Assembly: GCA_903813345.2 (NCBI GenBank)
Contig: CAIIXF020000012.1
Span: 17,044,020 to 17,108,019, forward strand
Length of the DNA: 64,000 bases
Direction: 5' to 3'
From: Owenia fusiformis
Lineage: Eukaryota; Annelida; Polychaeta; Sabellida; Oweniidae
In this document: piece after piece, positions 10,993 to 57,579 of the stretch
Numbering within the stretch: the first letter of the stretch is position 1
Layout of the letters: every line of letters starts with the position of its first letter
Program-made: the position numbers and the translations under genes
Notes under the pieces: model-generated
The model's database searches: none
What the model was told of the DNA's origin: nothing
What the model saw: the letters and a program-made list of their open reading frames with translations, nothing else

Positions 10993-11029
10993 GAAAGTGT
11001 TTGCAAAAAGTCAGAAGTCTTTACCTTAA

Positions 11030-11433
11030 GGTACAGCTGGAAAGTAACATTTTGGTAAAAAGTTGCTATACCAGCACATGTTATTTTCTGGTACAAAATA
11101 AAGTATGAAGACATGTGTCAATTGCCTTGCTTTTTTCAGGAAAGTATCATTACATTGTCTTCTTTAAGAATATCTAGTAGAAGTTCAATGGGAACTCTAG
11201 GAAATTCTGATATTTCACACTTTCTATTTTTCCAAATTTTCTTTCAAAGTTTCCAGACAACACAGGAGCTCCCATTGACCTGTTTCCAGGTTTACTAAAA
11301 GTAGACAGTGTAATGATACTTTCCTGAAAAAAGCAAGGAAATACACACATGCCTTCATACTTAATTTTGTACCAGAAAATAACATGTGCAGGTATAGCAA
11401 TTTTTTACCAAAATGTTACTTTCCAGCTGAACC
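11030..11433. mobile_element. 404-bp foldback element, left twin
   Basis: Two arms of about 190 bp are inverted copies beginning GGTACAGCTGGAAAGTAAC. TTAA flanks it at 11026-11029 and 11434-11437. There is no coding content. Confidence 0.85.
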
Positions 11434-11437
11434 TTAA

Positions 11438-11831
11438 GGTTCAGCTGGAAAGTAACATTTTGGTAAAAATTGCACATGTTATTTTCTGGTACATAATTAA
11501 GTATGAAGGCATGTGTGTATTTCCTTGCTTTTTTCAGGAAAGTATCATTACACTGTCTACTTTTAGTAAACCTGGAAACAGGTCAATGGTAGCTCCTGTG
11601 TTGTCTGGAAACTTTGAAAGAAAATTTGGAAAAACAGGAAGGGTGAAATATCAGAATTCCCTGGAGTTCCCTTTGAACTCCTACCAGATATTCTAAAAGA
11701 AGACAATGTAATGATACTTTCCTGAAAAAAGCAAGGAAATTGATACATGCCTTCATAGTTTATTTTGTACCAGAAAATAACATGTGCAGGTATAGCAATT
11801 TTTTACCAAAATGTTACTTTCCAGCTGTACC
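11438..11831. mobile_element. 394-bp foldback element, right twin
   Basis: This is a second copy of the same foldback in head-to-tail contact with the first, sharing the TTAA between them (11434-11437). The right flank is TAAA (11832-11835), one change from TTAA. Together the twins carry four arms and can form several alternative long hairpins. Confidence 0.85.
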
Positions 11832-11994
11832 TAAAATAATTTGCCGCTATTCTTCTCAAAATGTGATGTTTTTGATAGTTGATGATGTTGTTAACATTCA
11901 TGCATCATATTTTTATAAAATAAGTTAAATAGACACAATTATTAATGAAACAAAAATATTTTTTAACTTTTCATTTCGAAAATATTGACCGGAA

Positions 11995-16246: not shown

Positions 16247-17761
16247 ATGGATCGTACAGCAATAGAGGATGATATGGAACTATCAAATGATGAACTAGTT
16301 ATCAAAAAAGAAATTGAGGAGTCATTTGCTGAGGGGAATATTGCTATTAATGATGCCACCTGGCCCTATATAATCAAATATGATGATGTCAAACAAGAGG
16401 CAAACACAGATGACTACAATGAATCAGATGTTAAACCAGAATTAGATTATATATGTGACAATATACAAGAGAATTATATTAAAAACAATGATTTGGACAT
16501 TGACTCAGATTCTAATGTAAATGATGAAACAATTCAAACCAATATTTTTGATATTGAGAAGCCTAAGGAGAAACCATTTAAATGTGAACAATGTGATAAA
16601 TGTTTCAACCAACAAAATGGCTTGAGATGTCATATCAGAACTCATACCAGAGAGAAGCCTCTTAATTGCAAATATTGTGGGAAATGCTTCAACAAACAAT
16701 CATATTTGAAACTTCATATCAGAACTCACACTGGAGAGAAACCTTTCAAATGTGAATATTGTGAGAGGTCTTTCACAATAAAACAAAATTGTAAGATCCA
16801 TACACTTCTCCATTCTGGAGAGAAACCTTTTGAATGCGAATATTGCAAGAAATGTTTTATAACAGCATCATATTTGAAAAGACATATAAAAATTCATACT
16901 GGACACAAGCTGTTTAAATGTGAACATTGTGAGAAGTGCTTCACACTTAAATCAACTTTGAAAAAGCATATCATGACTCATACTGTTGAGAAACCCTTCA
17001 AATGTGAACATTGTGAGAAATATTTCGCTCTAGAAAGATATTTGAAAGAACATATCAGGATTCATACTGGAGAGAAACCCTACAAATGTAAACAGTGTGA
17101 GAAATGTTTTATCAGCCAATACAAATTAAAACAACATTTCAGGATTCATACTGGAGAGAAACCATTCAAATGTGAACATTGTGGGAAATGTTTCACACGA
17201 AGTTATAGTTTGAAAATCCATTTAAAAAAGAGGCATTCTGGAAAGAAACCTTTTAAATGTGAATATTGCGAGAAAGGTTTTTCCATAGCATCATATTTGA
17301 AAAGGCATATCAAAATTCATTCTGTACACAATCCATTTAAATGTGAACATTGTGAGAAATGTTTCCCAGGAGAAAAAAGCTTTATAGATCATGTACGAAC
17401 ACATACAGGTGAAAAGCCATTCAAATGTGAACATTGCGGAAAATACTTTTCACAAAAAAAGAATTTTAATGCTCACTTACAGACTCACAATCAAGAAAAA
17501 TGTTACAAAGGTGAACATTGGGAAATTACTTTCTCCAGACCTTCACATATGAAAGTTGATGTTCAGACTCATACTGAAAATAAACCATTTAAATGTGAAC
17601 ATTGTGACATTTGCTTTAAAAGTCCCCTAACATTAGCACAACATTCTTATATCCATGCTGGGTTCAAACCATTTAAATGTGGATATTGTGATGAATCTTT
17701 TAATCAAACAAAGGATTTGAGAAAACATTTAAAGCTATGCAAATCTAAGAAAGATAAATAA
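16247..17761 (+). CDS. Zinc-finger protein B, intact, 14 C2H2 units
   Basis: This is a 504-residue, likely nuclear DNA-binding protein. Residues 1-112 are acidic and low in order, with hydrophobic-Lys-x-Glu motifs IKKE (19-22), VKQE (48-51) and VKPE (62-65), which match the SUMO-acceptor consensus. Fingers begin with Cys113 and run to the C-terminus. Unit 12 is degenerate: its first Cys is Gly (YKGEH), its second is Trp only in this copy, and its first His is Asp. Unit 14 ends in Cys instead of His (C2HC). Several linkers depart from TGEKP (TGHKL, TVEKP, SVHNP, NQEKC). There is no KRAB, BTB, SCAN or ZAD domain. An in-frame TAG just upstream supports the ATG, and the context has A at -3 and G at +4. 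Target DNA is unknown; repression is an inference from the SUMO-type motifs. Confidence 0.88.
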   Translation: MDRTAIEDDMELSNDELVIKKEIEESFAEGNIAINDATWPYIIKYDDVKQEANTDDYNESDVKPELDYICDNIQENYIKNNDLDIDSDSNVNDETIQTNIFDIEKPKEKPFKCEQCDKCFNQQNGLRCHIRTHTREKPLNCKYCGKCFNKQSYLKLHIRTHTGEKPFKCEYCERSFTIKQNCKIHTLLHSGEKPFECEYCKKCFITASYLKRHIKIHTGHKLFKCEHCEKCFTLKSTLKKHIMTHTVEKPFKCEHCEKYFALERYLKEHIRIHTGEKPYKCKQCEKCFISQYKLKQHFRIHTGEKPFKCEHCGKCFTRSYSLKIHLKKRHSGKKPFKCEYCEKGFSIASYLKRHIKIHSVHNPFKCEHCEKCFPGEKSFIDHVRTHTGEKPFKCEHCGKYFSQKKNFNAHLQTHNQEKCYKGEHWEITFSRPSHMKVDVQTHTENKPFKCEHCDICFKSPLTLAQHSYIHAGFKPFKCGYCDESFNQTKDLRKHLKLCKSKKDK

Positions 17762-22334: not shown

Positions 22335-22529
22335 TAGTCCAGAAAGAATATATAACAACTGTAAATTCTGAAAGATTGGATTTTTAATCCACGGATTGCT
22401 AGTCCAGAAAGAATATATAACAACTGTAAATTCTGAAAGATTGGATTTTTAATCCACGGATTGCTAGTCCAGAAAGAATATATAACAACTGTAAATTCTG
22501 AAAGATTGGATTTTTAATCCAAGGATTGA
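22335..22529 (+). repeat. 65-bp tandem repeat, 3 units, in the 5' UTR of C
   Basis: The unit starts TAGTCCAGAAAGAATATATA and ends in the ATCCACGGATTG region. C has three units, E has two, and A, B and D have one. It changes the distance from acceptor to ATG. Confidence 0.92.
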
Positions 22530-22572: not shown

Positions 22573-23819
22573 ATGGATCATGCAGCAATAGAGGATGATA
22601 TGAAACTATCAAATGATGAACCAGTTATCAAAAAAGAAATTGAGGAGTCATTTGCTGAGGGGAATATTGCTATTAATGATGCCACCTGGCCCTATATAAT
22701 CAAATATGATGATGTTAAACAAGAGGCAAACACAGATGACTACAATGAATCAGATGTTAAAGAAGAGGCAAACACAGATGACTACAATGAATCAGATGTT
22801 AAACCAGAATTAGATTATTCATGTGACAATATACAAGAGAATGATATTAAAAACAATGATTTGAACATTGACTCAGATTCTAATGTAAATGATGAAACAA
22901 TTCAAACCAATATTTTTGATATTGAGAAGCCCAAGGAGAAACCATTTAAATGTGATCAATGTGATAAATGTTTCAACCAACAAAATGGCTTGAGATCTCA
23001 TATCAGAACTCATACCAGAACTCATACCAAAGAGAAGCCTATTCATTGCAAATATTGTGGGAAATGTTTCAACAAACGATCATATTTGAAACTTCATATC
23101 AGAACTCACACCGGAGAGAAACCTTTCAAATGTGAATATTGTGAGAGGTCTTTCACAATGAAACAAAATTGTGAGATCCATACACTTCTTCATTATGGAG
23201 AGAAACCTTTTGAATGTGAATATTGCAAGAAATGTTTTATAACAGCATCATATTTGAAAAGACATATAAAAATTCATACTGGACACGAGCTGTTTAAATG
23301 TGAACATTGTGAGAAGTGCTTCACACTTAAATCAACTTTGAAAAAGCATATCCTGACTCATACTGTTGAGAAACCCTTCAAATGTGAACATTGTGAGAAA
23401 TATTTCGCTCTAGAAAGATATTTGAAAGAACATATCAGGATTCATACTGGAGAGAAACCCTACAAATGTAAACAGTGTGAGAAATGTTTTATCAGCCAAT
23501 ACAAATTAAAACGACATTTCAGGATTCATACTGGAGAGAAACCATTCAAATGTGAACATTGTAGGAAATGTTTCACACGAAGTTATACTTCGAAAATCCA
23601 TTTAAAAAGGCATCTGAAAAGAAGCAGACTCATACTGAAAATAAGCCATTTAAATGTGAACTTTGTGACAAATCCTTTAAAAGTCCTGTAACGTTAGCAC
23701 AACTTTCTTATATTCATACTGAGTTCAAACCATTTAAATGTGGATATTGTGATGAATCTTTTAATCAAACAAATGATTTGAGAAAACATTCTAAGGGTTG
23801 CAAATCTAAGAAAGAATAA
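22573..23819 (+). pseudogene. Zinc-finger gene C, internal deletion and frameshift
   Basis: The 5' part matches the intact genes: IKKE, two 14-residue units (VKQE, VKEE), VKPE, then fingers from Cys127. Unit 1 has an extra RTHT. After finger 8 the sequence jumps to the end of unit 12, losing units 9-12 and shifting frame. The open frame stops at 23691 after 372 residues. Units 13-14 follow in another frame to 23819. Units 13-14 and the 3' flank match the diverged remnant at 37138-37400 rather than A, B, D or E, so C looks like a recombinant of two subfamilies. An eight-finger product is possible. Confidence 0.85.
22714..22797 (+). repeat. 42-bp coding repeat, 2 units (gene C)
   Basis: These are two VKxEA units of the same 42-bp repeat that is expanded to nine in A and D. 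The second unit reads VKEE instead of VKQE. Confidence 0.9.
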
Positions 23820-31510: not shown

Positions 31511-33361
31511 ATGGATCATGCAGCAATAGAGGATGATATGGAACTATCAAATGATGAACCAGCTATCAAAAAAGAAATTGAGGAGTCATTTGCTGAGGGG
31601 AGTGTTGCTATAAATGATGCAACGTGGCCCTCTAAAATCAAATATGATGATGTCAAACAAGAGGCAAACACAGATGACTACAATGAATCAGATGTTAAAC
31701 AAGAGGCAAACACACATAACTACAATGAATCAGATGTTAAACAAGAGGCAAACACACATAACTACAATGAATCAGATGTTAAACAAGAGGCAAACACACA
31801 TAACTACAATGAATCAGATGTTAAACAAGAGGCAAACACAGATGACTACAATGAATCAGATGTTAAACAAGAGGCAAGCACAGATGACTACAATGAATCA
31901 GATGTTAAACAAGAGGCAAATACAGATGACTACAATGAATCAGATGTTAAACAAGAGGCAAATACAGATGACTACAATGAATCAGATGTTAAACAAGAGG
32001 CAAACACAGATGACTACAATGAATCAGATGTTAAACCAGAATTAGATTATTCATGTGACAATATACAAGAGAATGATATTAAAAACAATGATTTGGACAT
32101 TGACTCAGATTCTAATGTAAATGATGAAACAATTCAAACCATTATACTTGATATTAAGAAGCCTAAGGAGAAACTATTTAAATGTGATCAATGTGATAAA
32201 TGTTTCTACAAACAAAATGGCTTGAGATCTCATATCAGAACTCATACCAGAGAGAAGCCTCTTAATTGCAAATATTGTGGGAAATGTTTCAACAAACCAT
32301 CATATTTGAAACTTCATATCAGAACTCACACAGGAGAGAAACCTTTCAAATGTGAATATTGTGAGAGGTCTTTCACAATGAAACAAAATTGTGAGATCCA
32401 TACACTTCTTCATTCTGGAGAGAAACCTTTTGAATGTGAATATTGCAAGAAATGTTTTATAACAGCATCATATTTGAAAAGACATATAAAAATTCATACT
32501 GGACACAAGCTGTTAAAATGTGAACATTGTGAGAAGTGTTTCACACATAGATCAACTTTGAAACAGCATATCATGACTCATACTGTTGAGAAACCCTTCA
32601 AATGTGAACATTGTGAGAAATATTTCGCTCAAGAAAGATATTTGAAAGAACATATCAGGATTCATACTGGAGAGAAACCCTACAAATGTAAACATTGTGA
32701 GAAATGTTTCATCAGCCAATACAACTTAAAACAACACTTCAGGATTCATACTGGAGATAAACCATTCAAATGTGAACATTGTGGGAAATGTTTCACACGA
32801 AGTTATAGTTTGAAAATCCATTTAAAAAAGAGGCATTCTGGAAAGAAACCTTTTAAATGTGAATATTGCGAGAAAGGTTTTTCCATAGCATCATATTTGA
32901 AAAGGCATATCAAAATTCATTCTGTACACAATCCATTTAAATGTGAACATTGTGAGAAATGTTTCCCAGGAGAAAAAAGCTTTATAGATCATGTACGAAC
33001 ACATACAGGTGAAAAGCCGTTCAAATGTGAACATTGCGGAAAAGACTTTTCACAAAAAATGAATTTTAATGCTCACTTACAGACTCACAATCAAGAAAAA
33101 TGTTACAAAGGTGAACATTGTGAAATTACTTTCTCCAGACCTTCACATATGAAAGTTGATGTTCAGACTCATACTGAAAATAAACCATTTAAATGTGAAC
33201 ATTGTGACATTTGCTTTAAAAGTCCCCTAACATTAGCACAACATTCTTATATCCATGCTGGGTTCAAACCATTTAAATGTGGATATTGTGATGAATCTTT
33301 TAATCAAACAAAGGATTTGAGAAAACATTTAAAGCTATGCAAATCTAAGAAAGATAAATAA
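31511..33361 (+). CDS. Zinc-finger protein D, intact, expanded VKQE array
   Basis: It has 616 residues. Residues 1-47 carry IKKE (19-22). Nine 14-residue VKQEA units occupy 48-173, then VKPE (174-177) and an Asp/Asn-rich stretch. Fourteen finger units start at Cys225, with unit 12 degenerate (first Cys is Gly, first His is Asp) and unit 14 of C2HC type. The array makes the protein 112 residues longer than B and E with the same fingers. D is the intact twin of A by segmental duplication. At contact positions it shares finger 5 (His at -1, Gln at 6) with A and E, not with B and C. An in-frame TAG precedes the ATG. Likely a nuclear DNA-binding regulator; SUMO dependence is inferred from the motif only. 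Confidence 0.9.
   Translation: MDHAAIEDDMELSNDEPAIKKEIEESFAEGSVAINDATWPSKIKYDDVKQEANTDDYNESDVKQEANTHNYNESDVKQEANTHNYNESDVKQEANTHNYNESDVKQEANTDDYNESDVKQEASTDDYNESDVKQEANTDDYNESDVKQEANTDDYNESDVKQEANTDDYNESDVKPELDYSCDNIQENDIKNNDLDIDSDSNVNDETIQTIILDIKKPKEKLFKCDQCDKCFYKQNGLRSHIRTHTREKPLNCKYCGKCFNKPSYLKLHIRTHTGEKPFKCEYCERSFTMKQNCEIHTLLHSGEKPFECEYCKKCFITASYLKRHIKIHTGHKLLKCEHCEKCFTHRSTLKQHIMTHTVEKPFKCEHCEKYFAQERYLKEHIRIHTGEKPYKCKHCEKCFISQYNLKQHFRIHTGDKPFKCEHCGKCFTRSYSLKIHLKKRHSGKKPFKCEYCEKGFSIASYLKRHIKIHSVHNPFKCEHCEKCFPGEKSFIDHVRTHTGEKPFKCEHCGKDFSQKMNFNAHLQTHNQEKCYKGEHCEITFSRPSHMKVDVQTHTENKPFKCEHCDICFKSPLTLAQHSYIHAGFKPFKCGYCDESFNQTKDLRKHLKLCKSKKDK
31652..32029 (+). repeat. 42-bp coding minisatellite, 9 units (gene D)
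   Basis: Order: TDDY, three THNY, TDDY, STDDY, three TDDY. The number is the same as in A but the order of variants differs, so the two arrays were reshuffled after, or unequally during, the block duplication. Confidence 0.95.
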
Positions 33362-35853: not shown

Positions 35854-35960
35854 ATGCTGGGTTCAAACCATTTAAATGTGGATATTGTGATGAATCTTTT
35901 AATCAAACAAAGGATTTTAGAAAACATTTAAAGCTATGCAAATCTAAGAAAGATAAATAA
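35854..35960 (+). pseudogene. Zinc-finger remnant, unit 14 only
   Basis: Sequence equal to the upstream flank of a unit (ending TTTTTAGGGACT) joins directly to the last finger (GFKPFKCGYCDESF) and the normal stop. Everything between, about 2.4 kb in the other units, has been deleted. It is the scar of a lost gene. Confidence 0.85.
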
Positions 35961-36674
35961 AAGTTAAGATGTGAAATTTTTAACCCTCATGTCTGCAACC
36001 TTTTTTTATAACACTAAGTCACAAGGGGAGGTGTCATTTGGACTACCTCTGCGATTTTTTATTACTTCTCTGATTTCATTATTGATTTTGTTGTGACCTT
36101 ATTCAATTACCTCTTTAGAAAAGTTTTTTTTCAAAAGTAGGTAAGGTCAAACCGAGGTCAATGTGAAGGGGATGTAAATTTTTGACATTTTGTGATAAAT
36201 TGTCAATGTTCTTTCACAATATTTTTTTGTGCCAAAATATACTTCGCTGCCTCATAGAATAATCTATTATCTTTCAAATGAAACTAAAATAATGGTAAAA
36301 GCTTTTCAAGAACTGAAGTTATACACTTTAAAAGATAACAGGTATCGCGAATGAAGTCAATGTAATGTGAAATTGAATAGTAAACAATTTCAGGTTCAAC
36401 TTCTTTTTGTCTTCAGCATTCATATTTCAAGATGTACAACACATGCCAATCAGTGATTTAGTATGCAAATGTATGAATGTATGACTTGGCATTGTCTCAA
36501 TATAATTTTGGTCAATGATGTTGCCTAGCAACCACCTAGCAGGGGCACAAACGTCGAAATGGTGAAATTGAAAAATTTGGGGGTTTTGGAGAATAAAAAA
36601 CAAATCTAAAACTTTGAAGAAGGTTTCATCATTACTCACCCTACATGAACCAAAACAAATGAAAACAACATATT
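35961..36674 (+). other. 3' flank of the deleted unit
   Basis: It follows 8437-8960 with more divergence and then diverges at about 36560. No gene was seen. Confidence 0.5.
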
Positions 36675-37110
36675 ATCAGGATTCATACTGGAGAAAACCC
36701 TTTCTAATTTGAACGTTGTGAGAAATGTTTCACGCAAGTTACTGTTTGAAAATCCATTTAAAAAGGCATTCTTGAGAAAAACCTTTTAGATGTGAATATT
36801 GCAAGAAATGTTTTTCTGCAGCACCATATTTGAAAAGGCATTTCAAAATTCATTCTGACCATAATCCATTTTAATTTGAACATTGTGAGAAATGTTTCCC
36901 AGGAGAAAAAAGCTTAATAGATCATGTACGAAACACATACAGGTGAAAAGCGGTTTAATTTGCTTTAAAAGTCCTGTAACATTAGCACAACATTCTTATA
37001 TTCATACTGGGTTCAAACCGTTTAAATGTGGATATTGTGATGAATGTTTTAATCAAACTCATGATTTGAGAAAACATTCTAAGGTATACAAATCTAAGAG
37101 AGATAAATAA
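36675..37110 (+). pseudogene. Zinc-finger remnant, units 8-10 and 13-14
   Basis: Finger coding with stops (the finger Cys in FKC lost to TAA-type changes near 36703 and 36872), a frameshift in the HVRTH segment near 36930, and an internal deletion joining unit 11 to unit 13. The last two fingers stay open to 37110. It belongs to an older subfamily than A, B, D and E. Confidence 0.82.
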
Positions 37111-37137
37111 AAGTTAAGATGTGAACTTTTTAGATTA

Positions 37138-37400
37138 AACCTTACAAATGTAAACATTGTGAAATGACTTTCTCTAGACCTTCGCATATGAAAGTTTATG
37201 TACAGACTCATACTGAAAATAAGCCATTTAAATGTGAACTGTGTGAAAAATCCTTTAAAAGTCCTGTAACATTAGCGCAACATTCTTATATTTATACGGA
37301 GTTCAAACCATTTAAATGTGGATATTGTGATAAATCTTTTAATCAAACAAATGATCTGAGAATACATTCTAAGGTATGCAAATCTAAGAAAGATAAATAA
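37138..37400 (+). pseudogene. Zinc-finger remnant, units 12-14
   Basis: It reads from PYKCKHCEMTF to the stop. Here unit 12 keeps both Cys that the intact genes have lost, although its first His is Tyr. This sequence and its 3' flank are the closest match to the 3' end of gene C. Confidence 0.82.
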
Positions 37401-39269
37401 AATTTCAGATGTGAAATTTTGTCTCATAAGATACAAGGATATAATATAAGGATGGGAATGATATGATAAGGATAAAAACTATCAGTCCTTTAAATTTCCA
37501 TTATTTTAGGAGTAAATGATCCAAGATTTTATGATTTATGGTGCAATTAATATATGACTGAAAATTTAATTCTGTTCATTGTTAAAAGACTGAAATTGCG
37601 TAGCGATTGAGGTCTTTGGCAACTTCCAGAACAAAATATGAGGTCATATATTTGCCACATATCATAAAATCGAGGTCTTTGTTACCATTCTTATATGATA
37701 AACAGACAAGAAAAACAACTTTTGGCATTTATCGATTAAAGCAGTCATACATACTCAAGTATAGACCAGTAAATCGATTGTTTTAGCTATTGTTACGTCA
37801 CGTATCATATTAGAATGCACAATAAACTGATACTTTCAGAATATTCATATAGCTTTCATGTAATTCTGTCCTGTGTGTGAACATTTATTTATGATAAGGG
37901 AAAAGAAGTTTCCCAGTAAATTATTTTGTATTGGAGAACATGTAAATTTGCTAATTGGCCAATTTGTGAATAAGGCAGGTGGCAAATTGAGCCACGTTTT
38001 AGGTATATGCATTTCTTCGGTTAGAGGTCATCAGGCTGAAATGTTAACTATATTTTCACTGTTTTTTATGTCACCGCCACATTTGATAACTTATTGTTGT
38101 AGTCTCTAATTATTTTGTGGGGCCATTGTTGCTGGATGGTCGGCATTTGTAACAAATGACAAGTGGTGACTTTTTCCAAGTCATGCCTTGTTACTTAAAT
38201 CAGGGGTTTCATAAGCAGGCAACAGGTGATTTTCACCAGTTGTTTTCACAAAATCACCTATTGTTTTTAGGGACTTTTCAACTTTTACATGTTAAATTTA
38301 TGATTTCTATTAATACGAATAAGCGCGTGTTGTTTTCCTTTAATTAGCCTGTTGTGAAAAACTCCAGTTAAACACCTGTAAATGTTGTTCGCAATTCTTG
38401 CAGTTGTTTTGTTGTGCATTCAAAAAAGATTCATCAAATTAATGGATATGCAGAACCCATTGTACTCAAATAATGATATTGTCATTTATATATGTAGCAA
38501 CCATCCTGTGACCAGCATTTGGTATTTGTAAGCGTGATTTATAAATTGTAAATCCAAATGCAACCAGGTACAACCAGGTACTTGTGGCTTATCATGTAAA
38601 TGTTTATGTCTATGATAATAAAATATACCTATTAAAGAATGCAAAAATATTGTTTTTGCTATCTCATTGAGATATTTGAAGGAATTGATTTGATGCTGAT
38701 CTATGTACAGGGGGTGAGTTCCCAATGATGTTAATTCTTTAATTATAATTCCCTCATAAATTTTTTCTAAAACTGCCCCCCCCCCCATCAGCAGACTGAA
38801 AGCTGGCTATAGAGAGGCCAAACAGTCGTTTCTTAATTGCAATTATTACAAAATTGTTGTCACTATCAGTTATTTACATTTGAAGATAAAATGTAAAAAA
38901 TAAAATGAATGTTTTTGTGTCACTAAGAATCAATTCAGCGGCACTGTTGACTAAATATTCACATGATTAAAACATAGTACTCATTATTAATTGGCACTGG
39001 GATTCTTATACCACATAGAATTTTAGGAGATATTTTCCTCCATAAAACACAATTTTTGTCATAATTCAAATGAGCTAATATTTTATGGAAACAGAGAGTT
39101 CTGTTCTAGAAGGAATTTTCCAAAACGACTGTTGAACTTAATGATTAAAAACACCATAGCCTTTAAAAAGTGATACTTGTTCAAAAATCTGAAAAGTTGA
39201 TTGTAAATAAATGATAATACATATCAGTTAGGCCAGGGGTTGAATTGTTTTAAATTAAATTATTATTTC
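37401..39269 (+). other. Upstream intronic or 5' flank of unit E
   Basis: It resembles 23820-24380 and then the upstream flanks, closest to unit C. It contains a C-run near 38775 followed by an insertion of about 60 bp. No gene was seen. Confidence 0.5.
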
Positions 39270-39296: not shown

Positions 39297-39426
39297 TAGT
39301 CCAGAAAGAATATATAACAACTGTAAATTCTGAAAGATTGGATTTTTAATCCACGGATTGCTAGTCCAGAAAGAATATATAACAACTGTGAATTCTGAAA
39401 GATTGGATTTTTAATCCACGGATTGA
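39297..39426 (+). repeat. 65-bp tandem repeat, 2 units, in the 5' UTR of E
   Basis: This is the same unit as at 22335-22529 in C (three units). Confidence 0.92.
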
Positions 39427-39469: not shown

Positions 39470-40984
39470 ATGGATCATGCAGCAATAGAGGATGATATGA
39501 AACTATCAAATGATGAACCAGCTATCAAAAAAGAAATTGAGGAGTCATTTGCTGAGGGGAATATTGCTATAAATGATGCAACATGGCCTTACATAATCAA
39601 ATATGATGATGTCAAACAAGAGGCAAACACAGTTGACTACAATGAATCAGATGTTAAACCAGAATTAGATTATATATGTGACAATATACAAGAAAATGAT
39701 AGTAAAAACAATGATTTCGACATTGACTCAGATTCTAATGTAAATGATGAAACAATTCAAACCAATATTTTTGATATTGAGAAGCCTAAGGAGAAACCAT
39801 TTAAATGTGAACACTGTGATAAATGTTTCAACCAACAAAATGGCTTGAGATCTCATATCAGAACTCATACCAGAGAGAAGCCTCTTAATTGCAAATATTG
39901 TGGGAAATGTTTCAACAAACGATCATATTTGAAACTTCATATCAGAACTCACACTGGAGAGAAACCTTTCAAATGTGAATATTGTGAGAGGTCTTTCACA
40001 ATGAAACAAAATTGTGAGATCCATACACTTCTTCATTCTGGAGAGAAACCTTTTGAATGTGAATATTGCAAGAAATGTTTTATGACAGCATCATATTTGA
40101 AAAGACATATAAAAATTCATACTGGACACAAGCTGTTAAAATGTGAACATTGTGAGAAGTGTTTCACACATAGATCAACTTTGAAACAGCATATCATGAC
40201 TCATACTGTTGAGAAACCCTTCAAATGTGAACATTGTGACAAATATTTCGCTCAAGAAAGATATTTGAAAGAACATATCAGGATTCATACTGGAGAGAAA
40301 CCCTACAAATGTAAACAGTGTGAGAAATGTTTTATCAGCCAATACAACTTAAAACAACACTTCAGGATTCATACTGGATCAAAACCATTCAAATGTGAAC
40401 ATTGTGGGAAATGTTTCACACGAAGTTATAGTTTGAAAATCCATTTAAAAAAGAGGCATTCTGGAAAGAAACCTTTTAAATGTGAATATTGCGAGAAAAG
40501 TTTTTCCATAGCATCATATTTGAAAAGGCATATCAAAATTCATTCTGTACACAATCCATTTAAATGTGAACATTGTGAGAAATGTTTCCCAGGAGAAAAA
40601 AGCTTTATAGATCATGTACGAACACATACAGGTGAAAAGCCATTCAAATGTGAACATTGCGGAAAATACTTTTCACAAAAAAAGAATTTTAATGCTCACT
40701 TACAGACTCACAATCAAGAAAAATGTTACAAAGGTGAACATTGTGAAATTACTTTCTCCAGACCTTCACATATGAAAGTTGATGTTCAGACTCATACTGA
40801 AAATAAACCATTTAAATGTGAACATTGTGACATATGCTTTAAAAGTCCCCTAACATTAGCACAACATTCTTATATCCATGCTTGGTTCAAACCATTTAAA
40901 TGTGGATATTGTGATGAATCTTTTAATCAAACAAAGGATTTGAGAAAACATTTAAAGCTATGCAAATCTAAGAAAGATAAATAA
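39470..40984 (+). CDS. Zinc-finger protein E, intact, 14 C2H2 units
   Basis: It has 504 residues from the first ATG; a longer frame would need a TTG start. Residues 1-112 are acidic with IKKE (19-22), one VKQE unit (48-51, variant TVDY) and VKPE (62-65). Fingers start at Cys113. Unit 12 is degenerate, unit 14 is C2HC, and the last linker has Trp (AWFKP) where the other copies have Gly. Its 5' UTR resembles C, its fingers 5-7 resemble A and D (His/Gln, Gln, Asn), and its array length resembles B, so E is a mosaic. Likely a nuclear DNA-binding regulator; target unknown. Confidence 0.88.
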   Translation: MDHAAIEDDMKLSNDEPAIKKEIEESFAEGNIAINDATWPYIIKYDDVKQEANTVDYNESDVKPELDYICDNIQENDSKNNDFDIDSDSNVNDETIQTNIFDIEKPKEKPFKCEHCDKCFNQQNGLRSHIRTHTREKPLNCKYCGKCFNKRSYLKLHIRTHTGEKPFKCEYCERSFTMKQNCEIHTLLHSGEKPFECEYCKKCFMTASYLKRHIKIHTGHKLLKCEHCEKCFTHRSTLKQHIMTHTVEKPFKCEHCDKYFAQERYLKEHIRIHTGEKPYKCKQCEKCFISQYNLKQHFRIHTGSKPFKCEHCGKCFTRSYSLKIHLKKRHSGKKPFKCEYCEKSFSIASYLKRHIKIHSVHNPFKCEHCEKCFPGEKSFIDHVRTHTGEKPFKCEHCGKYFSQKKNFNAHLQTHNQEKCYKGEHCEITFSRPSHMKVDVQTHTENKPFKCEHCDICFKSPLTLAQHSYIHAWFKPFKCGYCDESFNQTKDLRKHLKLCKSKKDK

Positions 40985-42535: not shown

Positions 42536-44636
42536 GGTTTCCGGACAACTCGGACCCAGGACAAGTCGGACCCTGGACAACTCGGACCCAAGACATCTCG
42601 GACCCAAGACAACTCGGACCCAAGACAACTCGGACCACTTTTTAAAATAATGATTTTTATCATTGTTTAGGGTTTTTTAGTCTTTGTTTTATGCTTATTA
42701 AAGGGTGACGCATATCGTTTAGCAAATCGAACGCTCGTTTCTGGTGTTGCTCACCGTTTAGTATAAAAGGCCCGATCCCGGAATAATACTCAAGGGTTCA
42801 CAGGTTCGAGTCGTTGTGTCAACACCTCTAACTGTTATATAGCATAAGTATATTATAGATCGTCACACATTTATAAAAGGGTGATTTTTATTTTGACAAA
42901 TCAATTCCACATTTATGGGTGAAGTTTCAGGATCTTCTATTTGTGTATAATAAGGAAAAATTGGCATCTAAATTTCCCCATAACGTAATAGCACACAGCT
43001 TGGCATATGAAATATCCTACAAATGAAACAAAGCAAGACAAACCGGTTTCTAATACAAGAATTTATATTGGCTGTTGTACATGCATTATGTGAACGCAAT
43101 CACTCTTTGGATAACGTTTTCAAAATCATTATAAACGGATTACTTTATCTCAAAGGCAATTTCAATAAACTGGATTTTACAGAACTCCCCTTATTTCTTA
43201 AAAATGGACTGATCCAGTTGATTCGCCTGGAGCCGCCATATTGTTTTTATGCGGGATGCTAATCGGAACCCTTTAAATATAGTTAATGAAAACACAGAAT
43301 GAAATCCTGTGCTAATTAGAAGCTATTGAAGCTATAAACCCAAGACAACTCGGACCACTTTCTGAAATGTTAGTTTTTGTAAGGTACTTTTTTGTTTTCA
43401 TGATATGGGATTATTTGTAAATGTTTAGCATGACATGGTTTAGATATTTTGTGAGTTTATATTTTGTGTTTACATGTAAAGATGAACAAGATGTTTCAAT
43501 TAACTTATTTGATGAGAGTTGAGAATACAACTTGTTATATAGAGGTGTTAATGAGTCTTTTCATACAGTTAATACCAACTCATATGGAAAATCACTAAGG
43601 AATTAAAACAATAATAATTTTAATCCTAATCTCATTATCTCATTTACAGTCACCACCGTGAAGTCATATTATTAATATCACTGAAAGACCTATGTCACAT
43701 AGAGATCAATGAAAGAGTTTGTATTCTGTTAATCCTAAAGTTTTTTTGATAATTTAATCTTAATCTCACAGAAATATTGAGGAATGTGTTTGTATTCTGT
43801 AAATCCTCATTTTTATCATTTAATTAAGAAATATAGACTGAACAACAGTCGTTATATGGATGAATAAACCCCGCGGAGCAGGGCTAGGCATGAACGTGCT
43901 CTGTACCCAAAATGGCCGAAGGGAGTGAGGGGTCCGAGAGCTGTCTAGCCCTAAAGGGTTTATTCGTCGATATAATACCTGATCTGATAGTACGATCAGA
44001 ACATGAAAACTCACCAAATTATTAAGTTGATTTTAAACAATTACATCAAATAACACCATAAATATTTGAATTCAAAATATGTATAAAGTGTCAGACTAGT
44101 CGACTAAACATAAAATAAAAAAAATAAAAAAAACATATCACGATTAAAATCATAATTTCAAAAAGTGGTCCGAGTTGTCTTGGATCTTTAGCTTCAATAT
44201 TTTCTTCTTAATTCTCTCTAATTAAGTTCATTTTAAACAATAAAATTACATCAAATTAACACAATATTTGAATTCAAAATATATAATATGTCATACTAAA
44301 CATAAAATAAAAAAAATGAAAACCATATCATGATAAATATCATAATCTCAAAAAGTGGTCCGAGTTGTCTTGGGTCTTTAGCTTCAATATTTTCTTTTTA
44401 ACTATCATTAAATAATAAGTTGATTTAAAACAATTTCAATTCATCAAATTAACACAATAAATGAATGCAAAGTACATAATAAATGTCATCTAAACATAAA
44501 ACAAAAATTAAAACTCCATATTATGATGTTAATATCATCATTTCAAAAAGTGGTCCGAGTTGTCTTGGGTCCGAGTTGTCTTGGGTCTGAGATGTCTTGG
44601 GTCCGAGTTGTCCTGGGTCCGAGTTATCCAGTTACC
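42536..44636. mobile_element. 2.1-kb element with iterated 16-bp ends
   Basis: GTCAAAAA is duplicated exactly on both sides (42528-42535, 44637-44644). Each terminal inverted repeat is a tandem array of the 16-mer CGGACCCAAGACAACT: about five units on the left (42547-42632) and about four on the right (44557-44625). Single copies lie inside at 43337, 44167 and 44354. The right half has three direct repeats of about 150-190 bp, each ending in an iteron. A 79-codon ORF (43023-43262) has no recognisable domain. An 8-bp duplication fits hAT- or P-like insertion. Confidence 0.85.
43846..43978. mobile_element. Small inverted-repeat insertion inside the 2.1-kb element
   Basis: GATGAATAAACCCCGCGGAG faces CCTAAAGGGTTTATTCGTCG, with AGGGCTAG/CTAGCCCT inside. 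It is GC-richer than its surroundings. Ends and target duplication are unclear. Confidence 0.5.
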
Positions 44637-46310: not shown

Positions 46311-48419
46311 ACTTACCCTTAAGAAAAAAGCCATGGTAACCATGGTATTCCATGGTGCGCCCATGGTAATCCATGGTTTTCCATGGAAATTCATGGTTTT
46401 CCATGTTATTTTCCATGGAAATTCATGGACGCCCATGGTAATCTTCCATGGATATTTACCATGATTTTCCGTGGTAATTGTTGGTTTGGTAATTGTTTTT
46501 TAATGGATGTGTCATGGAGATGTAAAATCAACAATTTTGGTAGGATTTGTATTTACCAAAATCTCCAAAATGAATGTTTTGATGATATATCCCAGTTAGA
46601 CTGAGACTTACCATTGAGAAAAAAGGGTGGACATTTCATTTTGAAGGTATAGCAAGAACATTCATCGAATGTTAGACTCAGCTTACAAATGAGAAAATAT
46701 GTGAAACAGCAGAGCAGAGAGTAGGCCACAAGATTTCAAAAACAATTGTGCAAAGGTCTTTTGTGTAGATCAAGACTAGATAGAGATTGCTTATTTTTTA
46801 GGCCAAACACTTCCTTCCTTTGAAAAAGATTAAGTCAAACTAGCCCAAGCTCTGTTTTATTTCAATACTTTCTTTAATTTTCAGTTTTAAAAATCAATAT
46901 GAAGTAATTATAGAACACTGTGGCTAGTCGATCTATGTGGATGCAGTCAGGCACATGTAATGTTTAGTGAGTACCCGCCTCTGTACTTTTCAATGGAAGA
47001 ATTTTGCACTTCTGTTTAAATAATCTATATTTACTCATCCGTGTATAGCATACTTCATTGATTTACAAAACCAAAGCTACGCTATAAACACACATTCTCT
47101 GATATTTTTACGGAGAATTGATAACTCAAACGAGTTCACTCGACCAGTTTTATCATCTCGCTCATAGCTGTGAGAAGGTATGTATAATTTGCCATAGGTT
47201 TACCTTGTAATGGGGAATAAAAAATTCAAGTAATATAATTATTTCACATACACAAATATGTCTGTGTGAAGTAAAATACAAATACAATGCGTTCTATAAT
47301 ATTTTTGGAGTTATGGTATGAAATATCAGCTTTAAAAAAGCAATTTAATTATGATGTATCATGTGGATTAGTAGACGTTCTGATTGGATTCATTGAACAG
47401 ACTGGCTAGGTTTCAATTGAATCATTTTGAATGTGTGTATTTTTAATGTTTTAATCCACAGTGTCCGAAAACAATAATAATGCTATATTGGTAATTGGAA
47501 AAATTCCACTTACCACGATTTCAAAAAATTGTAAATAGATAATACTCTTCTTGAATGATGGTCATTTGTTTCAAGGAATCTGGAGGCTCGTTCAGCTGAG
47601 CTGACAAAATCATCAAGATTTACGGATGGTCCATCTGTTGGCTGCTCATTGTCACCTTCAAGGAATGTTAATGGCTCTGAAACTGGTAGCCTTGCCCAAG
47701 TCGGTATTTATTTACTTATCTGATCTTGAATTATTACCACCTTGTACAATCCAATGTATCATCGCTGATATTATGCTAAGTTATTCAGCGGTTCCGAGAT
47801 TCCCATAATACCTAGGCTACCTAAGGGTATCGCAAAACCATATTGATTGACAATATGGACATGGACACAACGTGTGACTTCAGGCTGATTGACCAATCAA
47901 AACGTTATCAGGTTGACCTGCATAAAAAAGCTAACTACCCGTCTAGGACTTGAAATTCAATGATCTGATCGACTGTTTCTTGAGAGTTACAATATATTAT
48001 GTTATTAAATGTACATTGGAATGTAAGCAGTCATTAATACTCGTCTAAATGAAACCATGCAATTCAATGTTGATTCAAAATCAAAACTGAATTCGCGATG
48101 GAAATGCACGAAGACCTAGTCCGGCAATGTAGGGCCGTCATTGATTTGTCAAATTTTACCGACAAAAACATTGGGTCGGTAAAGCACATGGCTTTCTCTT
48201 GGGTACAAGGCGGTCATAATAGAAATCAAGATAAGTAAAATAGACCGACTTTGGCAAGGCTATGAAACTTGATTTATGGGTATTCCAGTGGGTCGATGGG
48301 TCTTTTGCTCTGAATTCACTTCATTAGCGTACCTAATTTCAACATTTTCATTGTCATCATTACATGTTATGGACCCGTTTTTCAAATTAACAGTATCAGC
48401 GATAAAACCATAGTTTTTG

Positions 48420-49473
48420 GCTCACACAGTGAGACTATGGGATCGACCAGGCGTCCGTCCGTTGGTCCGTCCGTTGGTCCGTCCGTTGGTCCGTCCGTCT
48501 GTCAACATTGGCTGCACAAATTAAAACTGCTATTCGGATTGAGTCATTTCCACATTCATTTTATGCATATCCATAATGTCTATTTGACCTGTCATCGCCA
48601 TTTCGCAAGTTCGCCCGGTTTCCGAGAAATTGCTGATTTTTAAATTTCGAGAAAAATCGATCTGATGATAGCCTTATAGAAATTCAAGAGAAGTGAAGAA
48701 AAGATTGAAAAAATACCATTCCAGTCCATTTCCATATGCATTTCCAGGTCCAAGTCCAGGTCCAGGTTCAAGTCAAGGTCCAGTTCAGGTCCAAGTCCAG
48801 ATCTGGGTGTAATCAGGTTTAAACCAGGTCAAAGGTCAAGAACTAGGTCAAATCCAGTACTCTGTCATTTTTTTCAATTTTCTCAGTCGTCCTTGAATAT
48901 TTTTGCTCCGTTTTTTAATCATGTTCCTTGGAAAAAAGCTAATCCCTACAGGCAAGTTGTTTTTGATCACTCTTACCGTTTTTGAGATATGGTATCCGAA
49001 AAGTAGGTCACAATAAAAAGTTCTTGGAATTCAATGTATAAGTTAATTATGAAATGTGTAAAATTGTCCAAGGAATCCGAATCTGCAAACCAGATTTTGA
49101 TCCGACTTCCGGTTCGGAAGTTATGGCATTTTGAAATCTCAAAAATCGCTATTTTGGTATCCCATGTTAAGTCAATGGGGCTTGAGAAAATTATCAATTG
49201 TAACAACACAACACTAGATACAGCTTGGATGCAGCCAACTTAATAAGAATCTACAATAGAGCCGTCCTCAAAATCTACTTTCCCTCAAAATTTGAACACT
49301 AAAAGGCCTAGGTCAAAATCTAGGTCAAATTCATAGTTTTTCTTTTGACTACAACATTAAATCATATCTGAACCAACAAAAAAGGACTCACCTTTAATTG
49401 ATCTCATATTTACCAATACTTTTGTTTGTAAATCAGGATATTCATTCCTCTGTAGGTTCTACACTGTGTGAGC
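48420..49473. mobile_element. 1.05-kb inverted-repeat element, nested deeper
   Basis: The ends are GCTCACACAGTG and CACTGTGTGAGC. Just inside the left end is a 12-bp repeat TCCGTCCGTTGG (48450-48500). From about 48740 to 48860 is a run of CAGGTCCAAGTC-type hexamers. No transposase was seen. Confidence 0.55.
48826..48838. promoter_or_regulatory. DR1 nuclear-receptor-type motif
   Basis: AGGTCAAAGGTCA is a perfect direct repeat of AGGTCA with one spacer base, within a longer CAGGTC/AGGTCA-rich tract. The tract's low complexity could produce it by chance. Confidence 0.35.
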
Positions 49474-50079
49474 ACGGGACCGTGGGTCCTTTATTTCATT
49501 TGTAATGGCATTTTCCAGTTGATGGGTTTATATATAGTATTTTCAATTTTTCATGAGGGTGCCTTTACACTACTTGTAATGGGGTGGCTAATTACTTTAC
49601 TGAATGAGGAACGTTTATCCAAACAATGGATACAAAGAAAATCTGGCCAGTTGTCCATCAGTAAATAAATCATCATGATAAAAGTATAAATTATTAAAGC
49701 ATCCATTTGTTACCGTTCTGAATCCAAATGATACATAGGTGCATCCATTTTATACATATATGTTGACGTTTACGAAATGTTTTTCAAATATCTTCCCTAT
49801 AACAGGAATATGGTAGCTGAAACTTTCACACATTGTCATACTATGAATATTGAATATGTGTGCAAGATTTCAAGTCACAATGTTAAGTAGAAACTCTGAG
49901 ATCACTTACCTCAATTTGCTGTCATTTTTTTGCAATGATCCCATTCCCTATAATGTACGCGAGTACCCACGAAACATTACATATAAATGACTGCATCCAC
50001 ATAGATCGACTAGCCACAGTGTAAGAAATAAATAACTCATTTTCTTAAATTACATTTCGTACATTTGAGAATACAATCA

Positions 50080-50280
50080 AAAACCATGGTTTCTTTCTTT
50101 GAAGTTGAGAAAACTGCAATCAAAAGCCATGGAAGACGGTTGATTGCAATCGAAAGCCATGCTTTTCCATGGTTATTTCTTTGATGTTTTGGAAAGTGCA
50201 ATCAAAAGCCATGGTTTTCCATGATTATTCTTTTGATCTTTTGAAAGTCCATGGTTTTCCATGGGCTATTTGTTTGGTCT
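50080..50280. repeat. CCATGG patch with CAATCAAAAGCCATGG repeats
   Basis: There are five or so spaced copies of AATCAAAAGCCATGG or TTTTCCATGG, alternating in orientation. They are related in style to the element ends at 46311 and 51566. Confidence 0.65.
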
Positions 50281-51770
50281 TTTGGAAGCAGAAAAATGAA
50301 TAATACATTATGTTTCTAAATGAACTTCTCCAAATTAAGTCCCATTCAACTTTTATAAGCATATTATCTGAAAAAATCCACAGAAAAGTATATACTTTTA
50401 CAGAATTTTGACTTGAAATTGAGATGGGGGATTAAACACAAGCATATGACTGCAAACTGAAATGTTATACCTAAGTGATAAAAATTCAATTTGTCTATGT
50501 AAGAATATTATATTTAAAAAGAAGTTGCATGAAGGAAGGGGAGGGGGTTAACAACACCATTTGGCTTAAAACATGAAACATAGTATAAGTAATTAAAATT
50601 GATTTGTCTTTGAATAGGAATAAATAATCATTTGCATAATTTTTAAATATTTGGTTGCCATTATTCTATGTTAATTAGGTGTCTTAACTCTCAAATTAAT
50701 GTCAAAAGATTAATCTCTTTACAACAGATTATAAGAGTTCATTTGCATAATTCTTAAATATTCTGATCTTTATTGTTATTATATATGATAATCTTACTCT
50801 TTCTAATGCTCCCTCTTCAGTAATTATTATTGTCTGTGAGTGTAGACAGTGCAAGTCAAAAACTCATTGTTGGTCAAATAAAACCAAATAGGATTTACTC
50901 CAAGTAAAAATGTTTATTCAGTCTGCAATAAGGGAATCCAGTGAGCTGATTTTATCACTTATTTTGTCTTTTTTTACATACATGCCAAAGTTAAATGATA
51001 GCAAATCCCAGCAAACAAATTATTACTTTTAATTGTGGGGTCAAATCATCAATTAAAAAAATATTAAGTAAACAGTTCTTTGTCATATGACACTATGTAC
51101 AGAATGTACTAAAGATATATTCAGATTGTAAAAACATGGTTGTATTTCAGGCCTGAAACCAGCTTTTGTCAAGAAGGTTGACTTTCTCAAAGATTTTGGG
51201 GTGGGGGGGGGGTGTCATATTCTTTTATCTATGATTAATGAGACTAATTCTCAATCCAGCTTGGATTCATTCGTTAAAATATTGATTCAATTTTGAAGAT
51301 TTTAGTAAAAACAAAACCTGCCAAAATTGTTGATTTTACAACTCAAGTGTCATGGTAAAAACATGGCATGTTCATGAAAAAACAATTACCAAACCACCAA
51401 TTACCACGGAAAATCATGGTAAATATCCATGGAAGATTACCATGGGTATCCATGAATTTCCATGGAAAATACCATGAAAAACCATGAATTTCCATGGAAA
51501 ACCATGGATTACCATGGACGCACCATGGATTACCATGGTTACCATGGCTTTTTTCTTAAGGGTAAGTTTTGAAATGCCTGTAACTTTTTCCCATTTGAAA
51601 GTTGGATGTTGATACTTGGCAAATCAATGTAACTTTGAATGAGCTTTAAAATAATATATGACACATACTATGGAAACATTGGTGTATGTCTGCCTAGGGG
51701 GGGGGCATACTTTTGGGACACCCTGTACATGTAACCAAAGACATATTTATTTACTTATTTACCTGCATTT

Positions 51771-52013
51771 GGGTTTGTGTAAAAAACCGGCCCCGGGTGA
51801 CCAGGTAACTGGGTAGCTGGGTAACTGGGTACCCTACCTTCCTACCAGGGTTAGGAATTTAATTTTTTATTCATTGTATGCCTCAAAACGCCCAACTGAC
51901 ATCCCAATCAACGTACCAGTGACACGACCAATCAAGCAAACAACCTAAAAGTTGTAAGTACCCAGTTACCCGGCCACCCGGCAACCCGGTCATCCGTTTT
52001 TTTACACAAACCC
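51771..52013. mobile_element. 243-bp MITE, 9-bp target duplication
   Basis: The ends are GGGTTTGTGTAAAAAA and its complement. CCTGCATTT flanks both sides (51762-51770, 52014-52022). Inside each end are degenerate CTGGGTAA decamers. It is non-coding. Confidence 0.85.
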
Positions 52014-52244
52014 CCTGCATTTTGACAGAGTTGTTTTTAACATATTTACATTTTTCGTCACAAAGTTGTGCATATACGTGCGTCATGCAATACATATTAT
52101 ATAATCATCTTCAACATTACAATCGGGATGATATACAATATTATAGCACGTAGAACATTTTGTCACAACTAGATGTTTGCTAAGTTCATGCCATAATTTA
52201 ATTTTTCTATGTCACATCCAAGGCATGACCTTTCTGGTCATTAC

Positions 52245-54326
52245 TACCATGTTTAAACGTAAACCATGATACCATGGTATACCATGGTTTACCATGGTCT
52301 ATCATGATCGGCAATGAAATTACCATCAACTCTGACCATGGTGGCAATGATGTTTTTTTGGTCAATTTTTGACCATGGTATACCATGGTATATCATGTTA
52401 TACCATGTTTCATGGTATTTCATGTCCAAAGTTTGCCATCAAATACCATGGTATTTCATTGCCATGTTCCTGACCATCATTTACCATGGTATTACCATGG
52501 TATATCATGGTTGATTGCATTTCATGGCATTTCATTGTAAGATGTGACAATCAAATACCATGGTATTTCAATGCCATGTTCCTGACCATAATTTACCATT
52601 GTATATCATGGTTGATGGCATTTCATTATAAGATGTGACAATCAAATACCATGGTCATACCATGGTATTTCATTGCCATGTTCCTGACCATCATTTACCA
52701 TGGTATTACCATTGTATATCATGGTTGATGGTATTTCATTGTACAATTTGACAATCAAATGTCATGGTCATACCATGATATTTTATTGTTATGTACCTGA
52801 CCATCATTTACCATGGAATAACCATTATATATCATGGTTGATGACATTTCATGGCATTTCATTGTACCGTGTGACAATCAATGACCATGGTCATACCATG
52901 TCATTTCATTGCCAAAATCATAACTCTCATTTATCATGGTTTTATCATTGCATTTCATGGTTGGTGGTATTTCATGGCATTTTATTGTCAAACCTGACCA
53001 TCAAATACTATGGTCACACCATGGTATTTCATTGCCATAATCATAACTATCATTTATCATGGCATATCATTGCATTTCGTGGTTGATTGTATTTCATAGC
53101 ATTTCATTGTCAAACCTGACCATCAAATACCATGGTTATACCATGGTATTTCATTGCTAAAAAGAACTCTACAAGAGTCTCAAGTCTAAAATTGGTCAGA
53201 GTTGAAATGGATCATGAAATGCAATTAAATACCACGTTTAACCATGAAATGCAATGAAATACAATGATTGATCATGATATGCAATGAAATGCAATGGTCT
53301 TTCTTGCAATGCAGTGAAATACAATGAAAGGCCATGTTCAAAAAGTATTTTTTACATGAAATATCTTTATTAATAAATGTTGATTAGATAACCAAATTAT
53401 TATAATTAGTGATTCTGATATTCATCAAAATCACAACTTTATATACTTTTGTTCCTTTATTTAATAAATTAATTTCTGTTATGAATAATTAAGTTAATAA
53501 CCCTAGAAACAATTTTTTTTTTGTTAAACAAATATGCTTTACTTTTGTTTGACTGTTGTCGGTTAAATAAGAGATCAACTTAATATTTTGTAAGTCAAAC
53601 CTCCAGTCTTCGATTAAACATCTTGACTGTACTTCATTGCATTTGATGGTTTGCGACCATGAAATACTGCAAAATAGCAGTATTTTTAAATGCAAAATTT
53701 TAAGTATAGTTTCAACAATATTATTATATATTATTATGAGCTTTATTTTGTGATAATTAAATGGCTCCATTGCATATCATGGTTAAATGTCTAGACCATG
53801 ATATCACTGCATTTGATGGTATTTGACCATGAAATACTGTGAAACGGTGGTATTTTTTAGATACAAAATTACATGTTAATTGACCATGGTATACCATGGT
53901 ATATCATGATCGTTAAATGGCACCATTGCATTTCATGGTCAGGAGCGTTTTTTTAACATGGAGTTTCCCATTGAAAAAATACTGCTGTTTCACAGTATTT
54001 CATGGTCAGAAACCATCAAATGCAATGATATCATGGTCGAGAAACCATCAAATGCAATGATATCATGGCCGAGAACTTGACCATGATATCATTGCATTTG
54101 ATGGTTTCTGACCATGAAATACTGCGAAACGGCAGTATTTTTTCAATGGAAAACTCCATGTTAAAAACGCACTGTTAACAATGAAATGCAATGGTGCCAT
54201 TTAACGTTCATGATCGGCCATGGTATTACCATGGTATTTCATTGCATTTCATGGCCATATACCATGGTATACCATGGTCATACCATGGTATACCATGGTA
54301 TGGCCATGGTCCATTTCAACATGGTA
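52245..54326. repeat. 2.1-kb array of CATGG palindromes and foldbacks
   Basis: The outer ends TACCATGTTTAAACG and CATTTCAACATGGTA face each other. The left half (52430-53160) is a tandem array of about seven diverged units of roughly 90-125 bp, each with CCATCAAATACCATGG, TTTCATTGCCATG and TATATCATGGTTG. The right half is a long palindrome (53884-54226). CCATGG, TACCATGGTA and TATACCATGGTATA motifs are extremely frequent. ORFs in it (for example 52700-53086) are repeat translation. Confidence 0.8.
53884..54226. repeat. Long palindrome in the CATGG array
   Basis: Arms of about 150 bp meet near 54055-54070. The inner part pairs GACCATGATATCATTGCATT with its complement, and a short duplication of ACCATCAAATGCAATG precedes the centre. 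Confidence 0.85.
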
Positions 54327-56290: not shown

Positions 56291-56375
56291 AGTGAAGTGT
56301 GGCCATACATGTAGAATATAAATAAGACACTCTTTGTTGTTTTGAATTTGCCTTTAAATTGCCCAGCTGGGCTTT

Positions 56376-56574
56376 TTATTGAAAAGTCAGACTCTTAAGG
56401 TGATAACACACTTGAAACTTATGATGTCACCTTGCCTGATACATAATGATTTCAAACTAGAATTAGATTGTGCAGGTGGCCAAGTAGTGATTGCTTCAAT
56501 TGACTATAAGTGTTGAAGAAGAGTCAGACTGTAAAGGTGACAACACACTTGAAACTCTTGATGCCACCTTGCAC
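56376..56574 (+). pseudogene. Relic of the N-terminal exon part of an F-like gene
   Basis: It matches 61210-61355 of gene F (the VKLELDCAGG and SVEEESDCKGDN coding stretch) with indels and a stop. Part of it (CAGACTxTxAAGGTGA...) is present twice. It is followed at once by finger sequence on the other strand. Confidence 0.75.
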
Positions 56575-57452
<878 letters not shown>

Positions 57453-57579
57453 TACTAGCAGCATAAACATCATCACCATTGCTCAGAATCATTTCATACA
57501 ACCATCTATGAATGGAGATCTTAAAGACAGTATTTGTGCAATAGAATTTTTAGTTAACTATTGAACTCAAGAGTTGCCG

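Follow-up and report, generated by a model that had tools for sequence, protein, structure and literature searches.

Can a coding minisatellite change how many SUMO-acceptor sites a DNA-binding protein carries, and is there any sign that such changes have been put to use? This question is raised by an animal-type C2H2 zinc-finger gene, gene D (31511–33361, + strand), in which nine tandem 42-bp units each encode a SUMO-consensus motif. It was approached in a window of 64,000 nucleotides, the whole stretch of DNA that was analyzed, which holds five tandem copies (A–E) of the gene on the + strand plus a diverged relative, F; judging by these genes, the window comes from a eukaryotic source. The six genes show that this repeat has multiplied a likely SUMO-attachment site, raising it from a single copy to nine, and that the tail already bore several such sites.

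The zinc-finger gene cluster and its 42-bp array

Gene D is an uninterrupted coding sequence of 616 residues, composed of a 222-residue N-terminal tail and 14 C2H2-type finger units (finger region, 32177–33358, + strand). Genes B (16247–17761, + strand) and E (39470–40984, + strand) are also open to the common end and have 14 finger units. In all three genes the twelfth unit lacks the first Cys and the first His, and in B the second Cys is missing from it as well. In gene A (6586–8022, + strand), finger 10 is interrupted by an in-frame stop and nine complete fingers remain, and gene C (22573–23691, + strand) loses its frame at finger 8. Gene F (61085–62962, + strand) encodes a 174-residue tail and 16 fingers, and contains an internal duplication of 51 residues and no 42-bp array. 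According to Pfam analysis, D and F contain tandem C2H2 fingers with linkers (PF00096; E value, 2.1e-59 for D and 3.7e-76 for F). The Pfam matches of D and F, listed up to an E value of 1, were to finger-type families and weakly to unrelated ones, and no KRAB domain was found among them.

A preliminary description of the locus held that the fingers are otherwise the same and that the genes differ mainly in the number of SUMO sites. Neither statement survived the comparison, because A and C are truncated and the fingers of B and C differ in their contacts. Fingers 5, 6, and 7 read HRSTLKQ, QERYLKE, and SQYNLKQ in A, D, and E, and LKSTLKK, LERYLKE, and SQYKLKQ (SQYKLKR in C) in B and C, and these differences alter base-contact positions. 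The helices of D and E show few differences (position -1 of finger 1, position 1 of finger 2, and position 2 of finger 11). Therefore, D with nine units and E with one form the fair natural pair for comparison, rather than D and B.

The fingers of E are closest to those of A and D, and its tail is closest to those of B and C. E thus looks mosaic, with its tail and 5′ flank closest to C (93% in the flank) and its fingers to A and D, a make-up that suggests gene conversion or unequal exchange. Between D and E (35854–37446), there are also loose partial copies of the 3′ end of the fingers, 68–99% alike, which are perhaps leftovers of duplication or exchange.

The 42-bp coding minisatellite is real. 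The array of gene D (31652–32029, + strand) consists of nine units without indels, each encoding VKQE followed by ANTDDYNESD or variants of it, and was reported by Tandem Repeats Finder as 31649–32040 with a period of 42 and 97% matches. Gene A also has nine units (6727–7104, + strand), in an order unlike that of D and with units 3–7 identical. Gene C has two units (22714–22797; VKQE and VKEE), and B (16388–16429) and E (39611–39652) have one each, in agreement with the counts given before. The earlier statement that each unit encodes one VKQE holds for all units of D and for 21 of the 22 units over the five genes; it fails for the second unit of C, which encodes VKEE. At the protein level, all 22 units keep V, K, and E at their places in the motif. 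As had also been described, IKKE at residues 19–22 (31565–31576 in D, + strand) lies upstream of the array and VKPE (residues 174–177; 32030–32041 in D, + strand) directly 3′ of it, and both sites are present in all five genes A–E. At the place aligned with IKKE, gene F has IKEE.

SUMO-consensus motifs in the N-terminal tails

The canonical SUMO consensus is Psi-K-x-E, of which [IVL]KxE is described as the commonest form (PMC3395311). In its strict form, [VI]KxE, the motif was found 11 times in the tail of D, three times in that of E, and five times in that of F, which bears out the earlier reading of the repeat as fitting the SUMO consensus. If F, L, or M is also allowed at the first position, this looser motif picks up FKCE or LKCE within the fingers (eight times in D). 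In none of the six genes do the fingers contain the strict form, which is therefore the informative one. The inverted motif (ExK-Psi) was absent from all six tails.

The motif is enriched against chance with and without the array. The 222-residue tail of D contains 11 [VI]KxE against 0.26 expected after residue shuffling, and two against 0.18 when the array is removed (p 0.009, 5000 shuffles). Each of the A–E tails without the array has two motifs per 96 residues, where 0.16–0.19 are expected (p about 0.01 each); since these genes are recent copies and not independent, their enrichment counts as one observation. The tail of F has five motifs in 174 residues against 0.13 expected, a count reached by none of 5000 shuffles. 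For comparison, stop-free stretches of at least 40 residues outside the gene regions contained 14 motifs in 28,709 residues (0.05 per 100).

Gene F serves as an outgroup to A–E. Its tail motifs are IKEE, VKLE, VKLE, IKEE, and VKPE, and the tail aligns with those of A–E at the start, IKxEI, SF, ND, and DVKxE. The third site is paired differently by two alignments, the first matching VKPE of F with VKPE of the other genes and the second matching DYNELNIKEE of F with DYNESDVKPE of E, and as the motif is present in either partner, it is uncertain which pairing of this site is homologous. By the second alignment, only 41 of 105 residues are identical between F and E, but eight of the nine Psi, K, and E residues are (the ninth is V/I), with p 0.002 in a test picked after the motifs had been seen. 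The internal duplication of F has an offset of 51 residues and 32 identities; both copies have VKLE, and the IKEE of one copy corresponds to VEEE in the other. Together with the 42-bp array, this duplication indicates that motif-bearing stretches of the tail underwent duplication on at least two occasions, with units that differed in length.

Because the tail of F is rich in motifs without any 42-bp array, the tail is a motif-rich SUMO-acceptor candidate by ancestry, and the array is later copying of it. The same observation raises the likelihood of a SUMO role beyond what a first reading of the sequence could show. Relatives were also searched for with the alignment of the six tails, which gave 69 pattern matches in viral contigs and 182 in prokaryotic genome contigs, none of them confirmed in either collection. 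As the scanned collections were viral and prokaryotic, the missing relatives say little, and the conservation described here is that of one window. Tail pieces 42–80% alike to F occur in changing frames at 56327–56580 (+ strand), beside finger fragments and another weak tail match (E 0.056) at 56579–56811 (- strand) and 57436–57477 (- strand). The pieces at 56327–57477 look like a broken copy of F, a rearranged pseudogene.

The tail is predicted to be unstructured (mean pLDDT of 45 from only six aligned sequences), with a single weak helix at 15–29. Mapped SUMO sites are reported to lie mostly in flexible, disordered domains (PMC7915335). For the acid-dependent motif (NDSM), acidic residues at K+3 to K+10 were counted; three are present in six of the nine D units and one in the other three. 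Synergy-control motifs have prolines on both sides of the SUMO consensus. Here, no Pro follows within three residues of any tail site, and an upstream Pro is present at the first tail site in A, C, D, E, and F, not in B. The phospho-dependent motif (PDSM) is given as PsiKxExxSP (PMC7915335), and SP stands at the required place after none of the tail sites. Among the six tails, a SIM-like ILDI at residues 212–215 (32144–32155 in D) is present only in A and D, the genes with long arrays. The corresponding residues are IFDI in B, C, and E, and two SIM patterns scanned had no match in the tails of B, C, E, and F. The ILDI may simply mean that the tails of A and D share an ancestor.

Copying, turnover, and selection

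In B and E, the DVKQE and DVKPE sites are offset by 42 bp and agree at 12 of 15 bases. In B, these 15-base stretches form the two ends of a possible duplication seed (16385–16441, + strand), both encoding SUMO-consensus sites. The case for this seed as a special feature is weakened by its statistics: a match of 12/15 at offset 42 had p 0.03, but p 0.44–0.45 over offsets 30–90. Since so short a match is not rare, we infer the copying between the two sites rather than read it directly from the bases. Among the 17 units that come after the first of each gene, 11 begin with GTT AAA CAA, five (in A) begin with GTC, and the second unit of C begins with GTT AAA GAA; the first unit of C also carries GTT. 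GTT matches the downstream VKPE site and CAA the upstream VKQE site, which fits in part the pattern expected from exchange between the two sites.

The A array has five identical GTC-type units in its middle, and the D array has three HN-type and five GTT-type units. Elsewhere the two genes are close, with eight changes in 288 tail bases outside the array, 18 in 1179 finger bases, and 0.7% in the 3′ flank. The arrays differ in order although the genes are otherwise so close; they have thus been rebuilt after the genes split, and their equal unit number does not reflect simple inheritance.

Within the units, eight nonsynonymous and two synonymous kinds of change were found against 96 and 22 possible ones, a ratio of 0.92, and the sparing of V, K, and E was not significant (P 0.15 by chance). 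Finger dN/dS among A, B, D, and E was 0.40–0.88 and significantly below 1 in none of the four pairs tested (A-D, B-D, B-E, and D-E; p 0.11–0.36). The four rows of C were left out as unreliable, since the frame of C is lost either inside the stretch that was compared or close to its end, and the comparisons with A take in the stretch downstream of its stop. Tail dN/dS without the array ranged from 0.17 to 1.78, on few changes. The fingers of B, D, and E have 23 variable residues, of which one is a zinc ligand (56 of 394 finger positions were counted as ligands), and this one lies in the already degenerate twelfth unit. Constraint is thus either weak or masked by recent duplication.

These results bring in the strongest alternative, a neutral coding minisatellite. 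As 42 bp keeps the frame in a disordered tail, copies would come and go freely, VKQE would be a passenger, and SUMO would not be dose-dependent. The near-neutral changes inside the units agree with this explanation, as does the long array of the truncated gene A. The A and D arrays, both of nine units but not colinear, point to fast turnover, and tandem repeats are abundant in the window (67 rows, some overlapping and some from fingers), including a 65-bp leader repeat in C and E. However, a 42-bp repeat does not account for the enrichment of the motif in F or in the parts of the tails outside the arrays. We consider neutrality throughout to be a serious contender, somewhat short of an even chance.

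The 65-bp repeat lies in the presumed leader just upstream of the start codon (22335–22528 and 39297–39425), with three copies in C, two in E, and a single copy in A, B, and D, and is a second minisatellite of these genes. The window holds other repeats as well. An inverted repeat at 11026–11835, with 365-nt arms that are 95% complementary and 80 nt apart, resembles a fold-back element. A 16-bp tandem unit, GACAACTCGGACCCAA, occurs at 42544–42636 and 44552–44625 in opposite orientation about 2 kb apart (compared by eye), and the two arrays are perhaps the ends of one element. Many short tandem repeats based on CCATGGTAT, with periods of 10, 20, 32, and about 113 bp, occur within 46331–54310.

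A probable SUMO-acceptor tail, its alternatives, and known systems

The account that we prefer builds on what was observed directly, namely the array, the enrichment of the motif, which F shows as well, and the differing make-up of the A and D arrays. From these we infer a course that leads from a copying mechanism through SUMO conjugation and corepressor recruitment to repression and an output that depends on repeat number. The N-terminal tail would be a disordered acidic platform with the ancestral site order IKxE, DVKxE, and a third site, and the fingers would place the protein on DNA. SUMO on the tail would recruit corepressors that carry SIMs, such as a SETDB1-type silencing complex, and would do so without KRAB. 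Genes A, C, and D would have gained copies of the 42-bp stretch lying between two existing motif sites through unequal exchange or slippage, every extra unit adding one in-frame acceptor site. D would thereby have up to 11 tail acceptors against three in E, with nearly alike fingers. The length changes would be chiefly mutation and drift, with the SUMO load altered as a side effect. Taken as a whole, this account has a slightly better than even chance of being right. Of its parts, the tail is likely a SUMO acceptor, an effect of repeat number on SUMO dosage is possible, and the array as an adaptive dial is unproven.

Recruitment of SETDB1 has been tied to SUMO carried by DNA-bound factors and by TRIM28 or Su(var)2-10, and the 'SUMO spray' idea has been put forward (PMC9406493; PMC7915335). 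More SUMO on p53 is reported to repress its activity (PMC12630355). RNF4 is described as having four SIMs (PMC7915335), so high SUMO valence could instead cause turnover. The preferred account and its alternatives are not mutually exclusive, and their likelihoods need not sum to one.

The tail might also be an acidic activation or interaction surface, in which the unit matters by its charge and not by its lysine. The net charge of the tail, -47 in D and -21 in E, would suit such a role. However, six of the 22 units have lost two acidic residues (DD to HN), whereas every unit retains the motif K and E. Lysines would also be needless, yet 11 of 19 in the D tail and five of nine in the F tail lie inside [VI]KxE. 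This explanation is therefore unlikely. An extended version of the SUMO account is also improbable, in which the family recurrently shifts repression strength by tandem duplication of SUMO-consensus segments, first the older 51-residue segment in F and then the younger 42-bp unit in A, C, and D. It would give paralogues with nearly the same DNA target and different SUMO valence, a multi-SIM readout, and probable polymorphism between individuals.

The preliminary description had seen in the repeat an evolutionary dial. If the dial were selected, repeat number would tune the SUMO load and through it repression strength or protein turnover, and selection would keep long and short versions. D and E, with nearly the same fingers and 11 and three tail sites, are what such a dial would produce, and the motif V, K, and E are intact in every unit. 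However, support from selection is absent: the array is near neutral in data from one genome, finger dN/dS is not significantly below 1, and the truncated gene A equals the intact D in array length. We therefore regard selection for repeat number as quite improbable. Tandem arrays and near-identical gene copies, the setting of this locus, are prone to assembly errors in repeat number. Such an error is nevertheless very unlikely here, because the arrays of A and D have their units in different orders, carry private variants, and are thus not one array placed twice.

Returning to the putative SUMO-acceptor tail, if the array is conjugated, the D/E pair would offer a direct way to ask how the output of a DNA-bound protein depends on its number of SUMO sites, and if silencing can be tuned by polymorphic repeats. 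Conjugation would further hint that a zinc-finger family could repress its targets by a route free of KRAB.

Several known systems share features with these genes. FiNZ sequences of cyprinid fish may also bear several [VI]KxE sites. FiNZ is a large C2H2 family with a short Glu-rich N-terminal sequence; its knockdown in zebrafish derepresses transposable elements, and co-immunoprecipitation suggested TRIM33 binding (PMC10547256; PMC11603059). The word SUMO is absent from the main text of both papers. The FiNZ sequence is reported there as 28 residues long, encoded by its own exon, and cyprinid-specific, whereas the tail and fingers described here share one open frame with a minisatellite. The pathway proposed here, finger-guided and SUMO-dependent recruitment of SETDB1, is that described for KRAB zinc-finger proteins and TRIM28 (PMC7915335; PMC9406493). 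In that system, as described, SUMO is on TRIM28, whereas here it is proposed on the finger protein itself, and KRAB was not found in D or F.

Synergy-control SUMO motifs are few fixed sites with prolines around them, which lie outside the DNA-binding domain and dampen activity. The tail sites also lie outside the DNA-binding domain, but they occur in up to nine tandem copies, and no proline follows soon after the site. Coding minisatellites vary the repeat number of proteins, in-frame units expand and contract fast, and finger arrays are another example; the difference here is that each unit carries one SUMO-consensus site. Proteins with several SUMO sites are already known. One protein with tandem repeats and a SUMO site was considered as a parallel and set aside, as its site is described as C-terminal and outside the repeats (PMC10028187). 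Judged by titles in the openly licensed literature, no report of a SUMO-site minisatellite or array in a zinc-finger protein was found. Finger families with Glu-rich N-termini, coding minisatellites, and multi-SUMO-site proteins are each known, and it is their combination, a SUMO-site minisatellite in a finger gene, that appears to be new.
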